Assembly (NCBI GenBank): GCA_040752915.1
Contig: JBFMHB010000032.1
Location: 1-35,877, forward strand
Direction: 5' to 3'
DNA: 35,877 nt
Source: Acidobacteriota bacterium
GTDB lineage: Bacteria > Acidobacteriota > UBA4820 > DSQY01
Shown: positions 1 to 5,994 of the stretch, piece after piece
How the letters are laid out: every line of letters begins with the position of its first letter
Position numbering within the stretch: the first letter of the stretch is position 1
The notes under the pieces: model-generated
Database searches by the model: none
Told to the model about the DNA's origin: nothing
The model's input: only the letters and a program-made list of their open reading frames with translations
Program-made: the position numbers and the translations under genes

Positions 1-1380
1 GCTCCGAACGGACCCCAACGCCGAGGGGAGCCAGAGAAAAACGCGCCCCAGCCCCGCCAGGATCCACAGGAGCCCGTCTCCCGCAAGAGGGACGAAGGCG
101 AGACCCGCCATGTAGGGAATCCCGAAAGCCAACAGTCCGAGGAGGGGAACCGACGCCAGGGGCGTGGCCAGCCATCCCAGGAGGGAGATCCGGTGGAAGG
201 TGAGGGCCAGGATCGGAAGCGTGGCGAGCTGGGCGCACAAGCCGACCCAGAGAAGGCGGAGGACCTGTTGCCGCAGGCCCGGTCCAGAAAGGGACTCGGG
301 GAGGGCATCCCACAGGATCAGGATCCCGAAGGTGGCCGCGAAGGTGAGCTGGAAGCCCGCGTCGAGCAGCCAGGCCGGATGGAGGACCAGCAGGGCCGCC
401 AGGGCGAAGGACCAGGCCCCGAAAGCGCCCTGGGGGCGCGCCAACAGACGGGCCGTCAGGAACAGCCCCGCCATCAGCAGGGCGCGGGTCAGGGAAGCGC
501 TCGATGCGGCCAGGAGTCCGAAGAGGCCCAGGAGGATGAGCCCCGCACCGTCGCGCACGGAGGGGGAGACCCCGGTGGCGTGAGCGAGGAAAGAAAACAG
601 GAGGAGCAGAAGGCCCACGTGCTGTCCGGAAAGGGCCACGAGGTGATAGAGCCCCGAACGGCTGAGCACCTCCACCTGGTCCTCGGAAAGGAGCCCGCGC
701 TCACCCAACAGGACCGCCAGGAGAATGGCGGCGTCGCCTCCCTCCGCCCGCAGGAACCGTGACTCCAGAGCCCTCCTGTATCGGGAGACGAGGCCCAGGA
801 AGGGAGGTGGGGAGGCGCGAAAGAGGCCCGGGCTTCGGCAGGTGGCGACCAGGTCCGTCCCCTCCCGCTCCAGCCGGGCGGCTCGGTCGGGCTGTCCCGG
901 GTTGGTGGGCGGCCGAGGAGCCTCCAGGCGGAGACTGGCTTCGAAGGCGCTTCCTTCCACGGGCGGGGGGATGGGCAGGTAGGCCAGGACCCGGCTGCGG
1001 CACGGATGGTCCCCTCCGGCCCCCCCGAAGGTGGAGACGCGAAGGAGGCAGCGACTGCCATCCACCCACGGCTGGGCGTGGACGACCGAACCGCGCACCC
1101 AGACGAACGCCTCCCCTCCGGCTTCCCGGACGAGTATCTCGAGGCCGTCGGGTTCGGGCTCCCGCAGGCCGAGTCCGCCGATCCAGAGTCCGAGCACGGC
1201 GGCGAAGAGCGCCGTGGAGGCCGTTCGAAGTCGGGGTTTCGAAGCGCAGAGGGCGGCCAGGGCGGCGGAGGCGGCCATTGGGAAGATGGACGTCGCCAGA
1301 AAATTGGCCGCCCCCGCGCCAGCGGCCAGCGCGAGGACGAGCGCGGTCCGGCGGCCGGGTTCAACGCCCACGCGCCCCAC
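1..1380 (-). CDS. comEC: ComEC/Rec2 competence protein, C-terminal part outside window
   Basis: This gene encodes the inner-membrane channel that brings single-stranded DNA into the cytoplasm during natural transformation. Reading the minus strand in the frame whose codons begin at positions 1, 4, 7 and so on gives an open frame to the left edge. It has a hydrophobic N-terminus, a soluble DUF4131-like segment with a beta-rich region, then the family signature LYHLVALSGQHVGLLLL near 601-650, followed by many hydrophobic helices of the Competence domain. The metallo-beta-lactamase-like tail, if present, lies beyond position 1. Start: GTG at 1380 is a reasonable choice, with TTG at 1392 and GTG at 1371 as alternatives; no convincing Shine-Dalgarno decides between them. 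A strong GC hairpin (1411-1441) separates it from the upstream selenoprotein gene. Prepilin peptidase and PilT in the same window fit a competence/type IV pilus setting. Family assignment is confident; the start is not. Confidence 0.9.
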   Translation of the reverse strand, partial: MGRVGVEPGRRTALVLALAAGAGAANFLATSIFPMAASAALAALCASKPRLRTASTALFAAVLGLWIGGLGLREPEPDGLEILVREAGGEAFVWVRGSVVHAQPWVDGSRCLLRVSTFGGAGGDHPCRSRVLAYLPIPPPVEGSAFEASLRLEAPRPPTNPGQPDRAARLEREGTDLVATCRSPGLFRASPPPFLGLVSRYRRALESRFLRAEGGDAAILLAVLLGERGLLSEDQVEVLSRSGLYHLVALSGQHVGLLLLLFSFLAHATGVSPSVRDGAGLILLGLFGLLAASSASLTRALLMAGLFLTARLLARPQGAFGAWSFALAALLVLHPAWLLDAGFQLTFAATFGILILWDALPESLSGPGLRQQVLRLLWVGLCAQLATLPILALTFHRISLLGWLATPLASVPLLGLLAFGIPYMAGLAFVPLAGDGLLWILAGLGRVFLWLPSALGSVRS

Positions 1381-1410
1381 CTCCTCTCCCAAGCCCGGGC
1401 CCGACGCAAA

Positions 1411-1465: not shown

Positions 1466-2533
1466 CTACTCGGCTCCGGCCTCCATCTTGAGGATCTTCT
1501 CCCTCTGACCCTTGAGGTAGGCGTCGTCCGGGTTCTTGGCAACGGCCTTCTCGATGGCGGCGAGGGCCTCGGACCTCTTGCCCATCTTGTAATACACCTC
1601 GGCGAGCGTGTCGAGGATCCCCGGGTCCTCGTGGCTCAGGGTCACGGCCCGCTGGGCGGCCAGAGCGGCCTTGTCGAGCTCCACGCCCAGCTCGGCGCAG
1701 TGCCAGGCGTACCCGTTGAGGAATCCCGAATCGTCCTGCTTGGAGGGGAGGATCTCGTGGTACAGGGCGAGCATCAAGTCCTGGGCCTTTTGCTTCTCCT
1801 CGGGGGACTTCGCGGCTCGGGCCTGCCTGCGGTGATAACCCGACAGTGCGTCGAAGGCCTCATCGGCGTAAGGCTGAGTCCCCTTCAGAGCAAGGCCCTT
1901 CAGGACCTCCTGGCCCCGGGGAGGGTCCTCCCGGAGGAGGGCCTGCCCCTGGATCAAGTCCAGGCCGAGCACCTCCTGGGCCCTGTCGGAAGGCCAGCCG
2001 CTCCGTGCCGTTTCCACCCAGGCCAGAGCGTCCTTGGCCGAGCCGCGCCCGAGGTACTTTTCCGCGATGTCGCGGGCGAGTTCCGGGGAGGCGCCGACCC
2101 GGTGGCGGTCCAGGAGGTCGTCGAGGGTGTCCACTCCGTAGAGGTAGGCGAGGAGCGTTCGGGTCCATTCGGACCGCCCCTCGTATCCGATGATCCGGTC
2201 CACTTCTTTCCCGCGTCCGTCCAGGATCACCGTGGTCGGTATGCCCCGGAGGTTGAAGGCGCGGCTCTGCTCCTTGCCCTCGGGGGTATCCGTGTTCAGG
2301 CGCACCAGAACGGCCGCCTTCGAGAGTTTCTCCAACATGGGGGGCGTCAGGACTTCACGGTCCAGTTTTGTGCAGCTCCCTCACCAGTCGGCGTAAAACT
2401 TGAGGACCACCACCGTCCCCCTCTCCGCGGCCGCGGCCTTGGCCTGGTCCAGGGTGCCCTGAAACCAGCTTCCTTCGGCGGCCGAGAGGGCGAGAGGGGC
2501 GGCCAGAACGAGCGCGCCAATCCAACGTCGCAT
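1466..2533 (-). CDS. Exported thioredoxin-fold/TPR protein, probable selenoprotein (UGA at residue 51)
   Basis: Read from ATG 2533 this is a 355-residue protein with one internal in-frame UGA at 2381-2383. The start follows a near-perfect Shine-Dalgarno (GGAGGTGA) and encodes a signal peptide (MRRWIGALVLAAPLALSAAE). Next comes a thioredoxin fold with FYADW-UGA-GSCTKLD, so the UGA replaces the first cysteine of the CxxC site, giving UGSC at residues 51-54. The cis-proline segment GIPTTVILDG lies about 50 residues later, as expected for the fold. The C-terminal half contains TPR-like helices, the clearest being EDPGILDTLAEVYYKMGKRS. It probably acts as a periplasmic thiol/selenol-disulfide oxidoreductase with a TPR scaffold. 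A caller that treats UGA only as stop would start at 2338 and lose the signal peptide and active site. The alternative is a Cys-to-stop mutation or sequencing error (TGC/TGT to TGA). No Sec-insertion gene is in the window. Confidence 0.8.
2350..2363 (-). promoter_or_regulatory. Possible bacterial SECIS stem-loop
   Basis: On the mRNA, a GGAC / GUCC stem encloses the 6-nt loop CGUGAA, with the loop starting 21 nt after the UGA. As I recall the bacterial SECIS model, it needs a small apical loop 16-37 nt after the UGA with a G in one of the first two loop positions; here G is second. A GGG right after the UGA could pair with the CCC run just before codon ATG 2338 to form a lower helix. The upper stem is short, so this is suggestive only. 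Confidence 0.45.
2381..2383 (-). other. In-frame UGA, probable selenocysteine codon
   Basis: The codon sits between the sequence for FYADW and GSCTKLD in a thioredoxin active site. Its position is exactly that of the catalytic N-terminal cysteine, the standard replacement site in redox selenoproteins. Coding character, signal peptide and ribosome-binding site upstream, and the thioredoxin body downstream, are all in the same frame. Confidence 0.78.
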
Positions 2534-2535
2534 GG

Positions 2536-2543
2536 TCACCTCC
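2536..2543 (-). promoter_or_regulatory. Ribosome-binding site fixing the selenoprotein start
   Basis: GGAGGTGA lies two bases before ATG 2533. It matches the anti-Shine-Dalgarno almost perfectly, though the spacing is short, and supports translation starting upstream of the UGA rather than at the internal ATG 2338. Confidence 0.75.
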
Positions 2544-2570: not shown

Positions 2571-4331
2571 TCAGGGTTCCAGCCGGGGGCCCGTCCGCGG
2601 CAGGATCAGGCGGAATCCGGCGCCTCCCAGGTCCGACTTGAAGGCCACGAGATCCCCTCCGTGCTCCCTCGCGATCTTGCGCGCGATGGGTAGGCCCAGG
2701 CCCGTTCCACCGGGTTTCTGGCTGGAAAAGGGCGTGAACACGGACTCTTCCATGCCGGCGGGGAGTCCGGGGCCGTCGTCCTCCACGACGATGGCCACCT
2801 CCCCCGCGGTCTCCGCGGCCTGAAGCCGCACGCGCCCCGGCCGGCCCGCCGAGGTGGCGGCCTCCGCCGCGTTTCGAGCCAGGTTGCGAACGGCCCTCGA
2901 GAGGGCATCGGGGTCGGCTTCCGCTTCAAGGCCTTCGGAGCACTCCACCTCGACTTCAAGGCCCGGGGAGGATTCCCGGAGGAGGGAGGCCTCCTGGAGG
3001 AGCAGTTCCCGCAGGGCCACCTGTTCACGGGCGATGGGCAAGGGGCGGGCGAATTCCAGGAGATTTTGGACCACCTGCTCCACGCGGGCCGCTTCCTCGC
3101 GAAGCGCCCGAAAGTGGCCGTCTCCGGAGAGGCCCGGATGGTCGGCCTCCAGGAGCCTCAGGTGCGCGAGAAGTGCGCCGAGGCTGTTGCGGACCTCATG
3201 GGCCACTCCCGCGGCCACCTCCCCGAGCCGGCTGAGGGACTCGGTTTCCCGCAGGGCCCTTCTCAGGGACGCCACGCCCGTCTGGTCTTTCAATAGGAGC
3301 AGATGACCCTTCCGCTGGTGGAGGAGGTTGAAGAGGGGGATGCCCGCCACCTGGAGGACCACTCCCGGTGCACCCTCCACCTCGTCCCTCAAGGCGATGG
3401 CGCGGGTCTCCCGCGCCTCGTCCAGCACGTCGCGGACGGCCGGCCGGGTCGCCAGGAGCGCCGCCTCCGTGTCTCCCAGCCGCGGGATCTCGGTGAGACC
3501 GAGCAAGCTCCGCGCCGAAGCGTTCAGCCCGATGAGCCGCCCCTCCTCGTCGAACCGCAGAAATCCCGCGTCGAGGTTCGCGCTGAGCGTCTCCGCGAGC
3601 CCCTCCACTTCTTCGAGGCGGCGGCGCTCTCGCGCGTGCAGGGCCTCCAATTCGGTGGTCCGGCTCCTCAGCTCGGCGAGGGCCTTTTGAAAGACCTGAA
3701 TGGCGGCCCCCTCCGTGGGGGAAGGTGCCTCCGAGGCGAGGAGACTCCCGGCTTCCCTCAGGCTGGCTTCCATGCCCCGGTAAGCGCCGTAAAGGCGGCT
3801 GGAGAACCAGGTCATGAGAGCCAGGAGGGCGGCGAGGGCCAACAGGTCCACGGCGAGCGCGGCCACGTACCGCCCGCGCAAGGCCGCGAAGGCGGGAGCC
3901 TGGAACGCCACCACGAGGGTCCGGCCGTCCTCGAAGGTGCGCGCGTAGTGGGGATGGGACCCCTCAAACGCCACCACGTCGGACCCGGCAGGCGGAACCG
4001 CGAGGACCGGTGGGGCGAAACCGGCGTCCCCCCAGAGGACCCGCTTTCCCAGGAGGAGGGCGGCGCCCCGCGGACGGACGGCCGCGTCCTTGGGAGGGGC
4101 CCCAGGAAGGATGCGCCCCGAAAGAGATCCCGAGCCGGGTGACAGGGGGAGGTGGGCCGCCCGCGCCGCGGCCAGCCGCCCGATCATGGAAGCCTGGCTC
4201 TCGACGAGCCCCCTCTCCCGGGCCAGGGAGCGGGACAGGGAGAGGACGAGCCACAGGCCGGCCACGGTGAGGGCGCCGCACAGGAGGAGCCACGTCCACG
4301 CGGAGGCCGTTTTTCGGTCAAAGGCCGTCAT
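2571..4331 (-). CDS. Membrane-bound PAS sensor histidine kinase
   Basis: This is a 586-residue two-component sensor kinase. Transmembrane helices lie near residues 12-32 and 165-187 and bracket an extracytoplasmic sensor. A coiled coil follows, then a PAS-like domain (LDAGFLRFDEEGRLIGLNAS), an H-box HEVRNSLGALL with the phospho-acceptor histidine near residue 378, an N-box NLARNAAEAA, a G1 box VEDDGPGLP, an F-box VFTPFSSQK and a G2 box GGTGLGLPIA. The layout resembles NtrB/AtoS-type kinases that partner sigma54 response regulators, but no regulator is adjacent. ATG 4331 overlaps the prepilin peptidase stop (ATGA), so translation is probably coupled. A far longer open frame to 5702 exists, but its extra N-terminal part is low-complexity Arg/Pro/Ser shadow of the upstream genes. 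Confidence 0.92.
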   Translation of the reverse strand: MTAFDRKTASAWTWLLLCGALTVAGLWLVLSLSRSLARERGLVESQASMIGRLAAARAAHLPLSPGSGSLSGRILPGAPPKDAAVRPRGAALLLGKRVLWGDAGFAPPVLAVPPAGSDVVAFEGSHPHYARTFEDGRTLVVAFQAPAFAALRGRYVAALAVDLLALAALLALMTWFSSRLYGAYRGMEASLREAGSLLASEAPSPTEGAAIQVFQKALAELRSRTTELEALHARERRRLEEVEGLAETLSANLDAGFLRFDEEGRLIGLNASARSLLGLTEIPRLGDTEAALLATRPAVRDVLDEARETRAIALRDEVEGAPGVVLQVAGIPLFNLLHQRKGHLLLLKDQTGVASLRRALRETESLSRLGEVAAGVAHEVRNSLGALLAHLRLLEADHPGLSGDGHFRALREEAARVEQVVQNLLEFARPLPIAREQVALRELLLQEASLLRESSPGLEVEVECSEGLEAEADPDALSRAVRNLARNAAEAATSAGRPGRVRLQAAETAGEVAIVVEDDGPGLPAGMEESVFTPFSSQKPGGTGLGLPIARKIAREHGGDLVAFKSDLGGAGFRLILPRTGPRLEP

Positions 4332-5125
4332 GGCGGGGAGGGGAGGAGGAGCGCCTGGTACCGGCTCCAGAAGGCCGGTCCCCAAAAGAGGGCTCCGAGA
4401 CCGGCGGCGCAAAGAAACGTGCCGAAGGGCAGGGGGGTTCGGCGGTCCTTCCCCGCGGCCAGGAGGTACGCCCCCCCGGCCAGGGTCCCGATCAAGGCGC
4501 CCCCGAAGAGGGCGAGGAGCATCCCCTTCCATCCCAGGAACGCTCCCAGCATGGCCAGGAGCTTCACGTCTCCCCAGCCCATGGCCTCCACCGAGAAGAG
4601 GGCGTAGGCGCCGATGAGGGCCGCGGGCAGGGCCGCGCCGAGGACCGCCCCGAGGAGGGACGCCCAGGGGGTCGTCCAGGGAACGAAGAACGAGGAGCCG
4701 AGCCCCAGCGCGATGCCGGGGAGGGTGAGGCGGTCCGGCAGGATCTGGTGTTCCAGGTCGATGAGTCCCAGGCACAGGGCGAGGAAGGAAAAGAGGGCTC
4801 CGATGGCGGAGGCGGGGCTGGGGCCGAAGGCGGCGGCGCACGCGAGAAAGAGCCCTCCCATGGCCGCCTCCACGAGGGGATACCGGGGGCTGATGGGCGT
4901 CCGGCACGAGGCGCACCGGCCTCGGAGGGCCACCCAGGAGAGGAGGGGGACGTTCTGAAACCACCGGATGGGAGCGGCGCAGGCGGGACAGCGGGAACCC
5001 GGCGAGACCACGGATTCGCCTCGTGGGAGCCGGTGGATCAGGACGTTGGCGAAGGAGCCCCACACCAGCCCCAAGAGCCCGGCGGCGGGCAGAAAGAGGG
5101 AGGCATCGAACAGGGGGCTCACCAT
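4328..5125 (-). CDS. pilD: Type IV prepilin peptidase (leader peptidase/methyltransferase)
   Basis: This 265-residue inner-membrane aspartic protease cleaves and N-methylates type IV prepilins and type II secretion pseudopilins. The N-terminal domain has the two CxxC pairs (CPACAAPIRW and CASCRTPISP) typical of full PilD. The catalytic aspartates lie in GLIDLEHQILPD and GWGDVKLLAMLG, the GxGDxK hallmark, with about seven hydrophobic helices overall. The length is typical. ATG 5125 is preceded by a GGGGAG-like ribosome site, and the start overlaps the end of the upstream TPR gene by 7 bases. With pilT at 8960 and comEC at the left edge it indicates pili and/or competence. Confidence 0.95.
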   Translation of the reverse strand: MVSPLFDASLFLPAAGLLGLVWGSFANVLIHRLPRGESVVSPGSRCPACAAPIRWFQNVPLLSWVALRGRCASCRTPISPRYPLVEAAMGGLFLACAAAFGPSPASAIGALFSFLALCLGLIDLEHQILPDRLTLPGIALGLGSSFFVPWTTPWASLLGAVLGAALPAALIGAYALFSVEAMGWGDVKLLAMLGAFLGWKGMLLALFGGALIGTLAGGAYLLAAGKDRRTPLPFGTFLCAAGLGALFWGPAFWSRYQALLLPSPP

Positions 5126-5994
5126 TGGCCGTAGGCTCCCCTGAAATTGAAGGGCTTGCTGCACCGCACGTCCCCGCTGGAGGGGTCGTACAGGTACGGT
5201 TCCCCGTAGGGGTCCATGGGCACTCCGGGAAGGAAGCCGTCCCGGACCAGGTCCGAGAGGCGCTGGGGACGAGCCCCCTTTGCTTTCGTGAAGGCGTCCA
5301 CCGCGGCCTCCAGCCGCCTGAGGTCGATCTTGACCCGAAGATCGAAGATGTTTCGGTCCGCGGCCAGGCGGAAGAACCGGCCGCGCGAGGAATCGTCGCC
5401 CTCGAACTGGCCGCGAATCTTGGTCCAGAACTCGAGAGATCGCTCGTAATCCCCTCTGTACTTGAGGGAGTTGGCCAGCATGTCCTTGATGAGGATCTCC
5501 TCCGGGTTCCGGTCGTGGGCGATCTGGAAGTAGCGCGCCGCCTGCTCGTAGTCCTTGGCCTGGAAGAAGGCGTAGGTGCCCGCCTCCCATGGCAGAAGCC
5601 AGTTCTTGGAATTGAAGGAGATGCCCTTGTCGGCCAGGCGGTAGAGGGCGTCCCAGTTCTGGTCCAGGGACAGGAAGAGGCACCCGAAGATGTACGCCTC
5701 ATAGAATCGAGGGTCCAGGTCCGTCAGGGTGTCAAAGGTCCGCGAGAGGTAGGTGCCCCGCACCTCCTTGCCATACCGGTCGAAGTACTGCACCGCCCAT
5801 ACGAAGATCAGGTCCGCCCAGAGATTCCTCTGGCCCAGGCTGGCCACCTTCATGTATCCGCTGGAGGGTATGTAATACGAGCGAAACTCGTCGGAGTACC
5901 CGGCGCGGAGGTCGGCGAGGCTCGAGTGAAGCGACCCCGCCGTCACCAGCAAGGCCGCCAGAAGGATCAAGGCCAGGGCGTGCCGGAGGTTCAT
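5119..5994 (-). CDS. Exported or membrane-anchored TPR-like protein
   Basis: The 291-residue product has an N-terminal signal/anchor (MNLRHALALILLAALLVTAGS). Helical TPR-like repeats include DLDPRFYEAYIFGCLFLS, NSKNWLLPWEAGTYAFFQAK and YEQAARYFQIAHDRNPEE. The C-terminal stretch DGFLPGVPMDPYGEPYLYDP resembles a conserved segment in type II secretion/pseudopilin-like proteins, which is a loose resemblance. No enzymatic motif is visible. The start overlaps the ABC permease stop (ATGA) and the end overlaps pilD, so it belongs to one translation-coupled series. It may be an assembly or scaffold factor at the cell envelope; its specific function is unknown. Confidence 0.8.
   Translation of the reverse strand: MNLRHALALILLAALLVTAGSLHSSLADLRAGYSDEFRSYYIPSSGYMKVASLGQRNLWADLIFVWAVQYFDRYGKEVRGTYLSRTFDTLTDLDPRFYEAYIFGCLFLSLDQNWDALYRLADKGISFNSKNWLLPWEAGTYAFFQAKDYEQAARYFQIAHDRNPEEILIKDMLANSLKYRGDYERSLEFWTKIRGQFEGDDSSRGRFFRLAADRNIFDLRVKIDLRRLEAAVDAFTKAKGARPQRLSDLVRDGFLPGVPMDPYGEPYLYDPSSGDVRCSKPFNFRGAYGQW

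Follow-up and report, generated by a model that had tools for sequence, protein, structure and literature searches.

A thioredoxin–TPR gene with one in-frame UGA

The window (the whole stretch of DNA analysed, 35,877 nucleotides from an Acidobacteriota bacterium) contains a gene for a putative selenocysteine (Sec) protein, in which a thioredoxin domain is followed by a tetratricopeptide repeat (TPR) domain (Table 1). Between the ATG at 2533 and the TAG at 1466 on the minus strand, the reading frame has a single interruption, the TGA at 2383–2381, and the 355-residue readthrough product has the active-site context KFYADW-U-GSC-TKLD. Pfam matches on this product are Thioredoxin_7 (3.5e-15), Thioredoxin_2 (4.1e-10), Thioredoxin (4.2e-9) and TPR_19 (3.4e-6). 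The orthologues described below are likewise preceded by GGAGG-type ribosome sites, and in all of them the N terminus, inspected by eye, is basic and then continues into a hydrophobic stretch. Standard ORF finding places the start at 2338 and yields an ORF of 290 residues, so that 65 residues are lost, active site included. This loss had been predicted in a preliminary description of the locus, of which the signal peptide, ribosome site, FYADW-UGA-GSCTKLD context and cis-proline loop all hold in their coordinates; the fusion of thioredoxin to TPR that it had read from the sequence is borne out by the Pfam matches.

Table 1 Features of the thioredoxin–TPR gene, in window coordinates
Feature	Position	Strand	Basis or remark
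Putative Sec-containing thioredoxin–TPR gene	1466..2533	−	355 residues and stop, with one UGA read through
Ribosome binding site GGAGGTGA	2536..2543	−	Direct reading; precedes ATG 2533
Predicted signal peptide, approximately residues 1–19 (MRRWIGALVLAAPLALSAA), no lipobox	2477..2533	−	Judged by eye
Thioredoxin domain, residues 24–124	2162..2464	−	Pfam, AlphaFold2 model, Foldseek
UGA, probably read as selenocysteine 51; UGSC motif, residues 51–54	2381..2383	−	
Cys54, resolving cysteine of UGSC	2372..2374	−	Invariant in alignment A1
Cis-proline 99, GIPTT loop	2237..2239	−	P99 invariant in alignment A1
Helical TPR domain, residues 137–353	1475..2125	−	TPR_19, TPR_2; all-helix part of the model
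SECIS-like hairpin GGAC-CGUGAA-GUCC	2350..2363	−	Loop begins 21 nt past the UGA
Near-frozen synonymous codon block AAA CTG GAC CGT GAN GTC CTN ACG	2345..2368	−	

Upstream of the gene and in the same direction lie a histidine kinase gene, the end of which is 38 bases before the start codon, a prepilin peptidase gene (A24_N_bact and Peptidase_A24; window 4328–5152, minus strand), an ORF that matches TPR weakly, and a pair of ABC permease and ATPase genes. Directly downstream is ComEC/Rec2 (window 1–1391, minus strand), which is cut by the window end. The gene order is common to relatives in both families of the order, and from this context a connection with pili or DNA uptake can be put forward as a hypothesis. 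A specific service to the type IV pilus or competence machinery would fit the neighbours conserved in both families (histidine kinase, prepilin peptidase, ABC transporter genes and ComEC/Rec2), but the case is drawn from the neighbourhood, and at three loci (L165, L166 and L168) another ORF, in L166 a diguanylate cyclase, lies between the selenoprotein gene and ComEC; we regard so specific a role as unlikely.

Conservation of the UGA among orthologues

A search of 100 related genomes returned nine UGA orthologues besides the window gene, seven from the same family (47–52% identity) and two from a sister family (42% identity). TGA thus occupies the same codon in 10 genomes of two families, the window’s own counted; in G009, for which two TGA codons are tabulated, the second is the ordinary terminal stop. 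With TGA retained there in all ten, its presence in the frame is not a matter of chance. A full-length orthologue of the sister family, gene L024 of genome G010 (39% identity), has TGC instead. TGA in the ten genes and TGC in L024 fall in the same column, so that an in-frame UGA at a redox residue is matched by a Cys-containing homologue. The preliminary description had placed the UGA exactly at the catalytic N-terminal cysteine and proposed a search for Cys relatives aligned at residue 51; the alignment agrees with the former and L024 provides the latter.

A maximum-likelihood tree built from 35 thioredoxin domains places the G010 Cys gene in a starred grouping together with the Sec genes found in its order. 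The tree was used for this grouping alone and was left out of the Sec/Cys counts, because three partial rows (L217_0, L220_0 and L216_0) bear a Cys label in it while the corresponding genes have the UGA. Genome G012 was left out of the Sec-to-Cys cases because its Cys gene is a paralogue, not an orthologue. A scan of viral contigs (viral_contigs) gave short thioredoxin-like matches alone, with 26–42% identity.

The 290-residue ORF that standard calling finds from 2338 would be expected if the UGA were a true stop, either in a pseudogene or at the end of the first of two ORFs, the second being re-initiated at ATG 2338. Against such a stop, the TGA lies at the catalytic Cys codon in ten genomes with their frames intact and the protein conserved on both sides of it; a re-initiated product would lack both the active site and the signal peptide; and, of the nine UGA orthologues, just two, L019 and L021, share the ATG at 2338. 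Termination at this codon is accordingly very improbable in our estimate. The window comes from a draft assembly (genome G000; 3.07 Mb, 98.3% complete, 153 contigs), which leaves room for a sequencing or assembly error that turned TGC or TGT into TGA, but the same TGA in ten genome assemblies makes the chance of this negligible. Both candidates, the stop and the error, were rejected on the conservation of TGA in ten genomes.

A SECIS-like hairpin after the UGA

Past the UGA, all ten UGA genes have AAACTGGACCGTGANGTCCTNACG in common, the sole change being ATA for AAA in one orthologue (L022). Pairwise identity of synonymous codons is highest, at 0.89, over the 12 codons that follow the UGA, versus 0.55 gene-wide. 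Counted over amino-acid-conserved, degenerate columns, one codon is used in all ten genes in six of the seven columns of the block (codons +3 to +13; TGC, CTG, GAC, CGT, GTC and ACG), versus 2 of 43 elsewhere (Fisher p 1.2e-5). Folded, the block gives a hairpin, GGAC-CGUGAN-GUCC, that has a stem of 4 bp, a loop of 6 nt, G at loop position 2 and a spacing of 21 nt.

The published bSECIS model has a stem of 4–16 bp and a loop of 3–9 nt with G in its first two positions, located 16–37 nt from the UGA, and a free energy of at most −7.5 kcal/mol (PMC13188914). The hairpin of the window gene falls within this geometry in stem, loop, G position and spacing. At 4 bp, however, the stem is a short one. 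When the hairpin is enforced in the 54 nt from the UGA, energies range from −5.1 to −15.6 kcal/mol across the ten genes; the window gene (−11.5 kcal/mol) and five orthologues stay within the −7.5 limit and four orthologues miss it (−5.1 to −6.6 kcal/mol), the stretch behind the published limit possibly differing from the one folded here.

Plain folding of the 62 nt that surround the UGA gives a stability no better than that of shuffled sequences (z 0.12), and Rfam gave no match to the whole window or to a 331-base stretch around the UGA. Within the order, covariation amounts to one double change, with 58 of 500 shuffles as high, and is uninformative because the stem varies too little there. 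The corresponding block of G010 reads CTT GAC AGA GAA GTT TTT GTT, and the hairpin is absent from L024: it is present in the ten genes with TGA and gone where Cys is encoded, a pattern that also counts against an assembly error. Support for a putative SECIS element stems from this comparison between species and not from folding energy. A bacterial SECIS fold, which the preliminary description had put forward as a check, is therefore upheld in its geometry and in the synonymous constraint, and not by the plain fold or by Rfam.

Selenocysteine machinery

All four Sec genes, a search for which had also been proposed from the first reading of the locus, are present over cut-off in the genome of the window: selA (447 bits, cut-off 268), selB (306 bits, cut-off 242), selD (346 bits, cut-off 125) and selC, the tRNA-Sec (72 bits, cut-off 47). 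The SelD gene (L070, G000:C36:20074-21000) is itself that of a selenoprotein: a single in-frame TGA lies at its known UxxK site, and GGCGGAGGUUCUCCGCC after this TGA forms a strong hairpin. In G010, the Cys case, selA had no match and selB, selD and tRNA-Sec had none over cut-off; that genome is 90% complete, and a chance absence of all four is therefore unlikely. The selB model also gave translation-factor-like matches at G004:C121:63573-64733 and G001:C50:8158-9318, each containing a single internal TGA; these may be no more than alignments crossing a normal stop.

UGA is reassigned to Trp or Gly in some bacteria, and by that precedent the codon could be read as an amino acid other than Sec, through a code change or suppression. 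We hold this to be extremely unlikely, given the complete Sec machinery with a second UGA at the known Sec site of SelD, the position of the UGA exactly at the catalytic Cys, and the use of TGA as an ordinary terminal stop in several orthologues. Judged from sequence comparison, the selenoprotein reading of the UGA appears strongly supported.

Relatives across the phylum

Relatives occur well beyond the genome of the window. A profile of the eleven proteins, run on 396 Acidobacteriota genomes, found more thioredoxin–TPR proteins whose genes have a single internal TGA; they belong to families f14, f26, f41, f48, f62 and f81. Their motif is again UxxC, and TPR matches were seen in the three that were checked. 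The genes of f41, f48, f62 and f81 have a hairpin of their own in nearly the same place, for example CUGCUG-GGU-CAGCAG or CUGCUC-GGU-GAGCAG. Across 12 such other-family sequences, 72 of 72 pair cells are paired and two pairs are changed on both sides; the resulting five double-change cells are reached in 0 of 500 shuffles, and slid versions of the stem all score lower.

The selA gene was found in 16 of the 17 tested genomes with UGA forms; in five genomes that have Cys homologues (G067, G371, G197, G247 and G105) it was either missing or scored far under the cut-off. Two genomes, G023 and G104, have selA though their thioredoxin homologues are distant Cys forms alone; selA by itself therefore does not predict the Sec form. 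The exception among the UGA genomes, G275 (92% complete), has no selA match, and its UGA form (L214, G275:C123:10154-10906) carries an AGACC-GGGU-GGUCU hairpin; the explanation is either an assembly that lacks selA or a stranded UGA.

Tandem arrays of UxxC thioredoxin–TPR-like genes were observed at four loci, with three genes in L230 (G295:C31:213500-220500), four in L231 (G145:C101:25000-33500) and pairs in L232 (G335:C124:1500-6500) and L233 (G319:C138:1000-6000). Each of these genes has one UGA and a CUGCUN-GGU-NAGCAG hairpin in the same place.

We lean towards a separate, phylum-wide selenoprotein family of Acidobacteriota, made up of exported UxxC thioredoxin–TPR proteins that act as envelope chaperedoxins or oxidoreductases, with Sec genes multiplied in some lineages into tandem arrays of two to four, and with conversion to Cys forms where the Sec machinery has been lost.

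Structural model and proposed function

The AlphaFold2 model has two confidently predicted domains (pLDDT 89.9, pTM 0.81), a thioredoxin fold at approximately residues 24–131 and helices at residues 137–353, most blocks of which exceed pLDDT 90. The thioredoxin part fits Thermus thermophilus thioredoxin (2lst) and DsbD gamma at 2.4–3.1 Å in Foldseek.

Our main reading, to which we assign a probability of about 0.9, is that of an exported selenoprotein with Sec51 inserted at the UGA, a thiol–disulfide role in the envelope and a TPR platform for clients. SelB with Sec-tRNA-Sec would be recruited by the GGAC-CGUGAN-GUCC hairpin downstream of the UGA, selenocysteine would go in at position 51, and the predicted signal peptide would take the protein out of the cytoplasm. 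There the Sec51/Cys54 pair may form or cleave disulfides, the most likely activity being that of a reductase or isomerase that receives its electrons from a DsbD-type donor in the membrane; the genome encodes a DsbD C-terminal-like domain at C129. The TPR domain may bind client or partner proteins, and we infer a periplasmic oxidoreductase in which the TPR region selects clients.

The selenoprotein could instead act mainly as an envelope chaperedoxin, a holdase with redox protection like CnoX, and not as a reductase or isomerase. The Foldseek match with the best E-value (1.8e-7) is Escherichia coli YbbN/CnoX (PDB 3qou), in which the domains come in the same order, and CnoX unites holdase and redox functions (PMC8129009). 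CnoX, however, passes its clients to GroEL/ES, which is cytoplasmic (PMC8129009), whereas export is predicted for the window protein; the two proteins superpose poorly when both domains are included (TMq 0.23, r.m.s.d. 24.6 Å, Foldseek); and no YbbN chain, neither 3qou nor 3qdn, is among the best 60 of 94 PDB sequence-profile matches at 1e-6. A mainly chaperedoxin role seems to us a minority prospect. The activity may thus be reduction, isomerisation or CnoX-like client protection.

Novelty and comparison with known systems

The preliminary description had held the protein not to belong to a standard selenoprotein family. As to the combination this is borne out: NCBIfam gave 21 weak matches, none over its curated cut-off and none assigning a named selenoprotein family, and the 2026 inventory of 119 entries contains no TPR fusion, its text being free of ‘TPR’, ‘tetratricopeptide’ and ‘Acidobacteri’ (PMC13188914). 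No report of a Sec thioredoxin–TPR protein was found in the open-licence literature, an earlier one elsewhere being possible. The components are not new, thioredoxin–TPR fusions (CnoX) and UxxC thioredoxins each being known separately; as far as tested, it is the exported Sec thioredoxin–TPR combination that appears new and is absent from the inventory. With it, the selenoproteome of a large phylum, most of which is uncultured, gains a domain combination not yet listed, in genes that standard calling would cut, losing the active site. G010 offers a natural experiment in Sec-to-Cys conversion, in which the SECIS-like hairpin and the Sec genes are both lost, and the tandem arrays of two to four raise the question of which envelope process needs many selenium-based thioredoxins.

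Like CnoX/YbbN, the protein carries its thioredoxin domain N-terminal to the TPR domain. The E. coli protein has an SXXC motif and partners with GroEL/ES in the cytoplasm (PMC8129009), whereas the motif here is UGSC and an N-terminal signal peptide, seen by inspection in the window protein and its orthologues, predicts export. Periplasmic domains of DsbD gamma and DsbH are among the closest solved thioredoxin folds, both by structure and among the sequence matches listed, but they are Cys-based and without TPR. Thioredoxin_7 is known from the CxxU PDZ selenoprotein family (PMC13188914, PMC9312934); this family, NF041199, likewise joins Thioredoxin_7 to a C-terminal protein-binding domain, but combines CxxU with PDZ where the window protein has UxxC with TPR, and the latter scores 14.8 bits against the NF041199 cut-off of 300.

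The listed selenoprotein families with a UxxC motif are thioredoxin (PF00085) and thiol:disulfide interchange protein (PF13098) (PMC13188914, Table 1). The domain of the window protein exceeds both Pfam cut-offs and shares with these families the predicted replacement of the N-terminal Cys of CxxC by Sec, the motifs of the Sec thioredoxin–TPR group being UGSC, UGAC, UGGC and UHWC. Unlike them, as judged from their Table 1 entries, it has approximately 215 residues of TPR fused to the thioredoxin domain and a SECIS-like element of its own.
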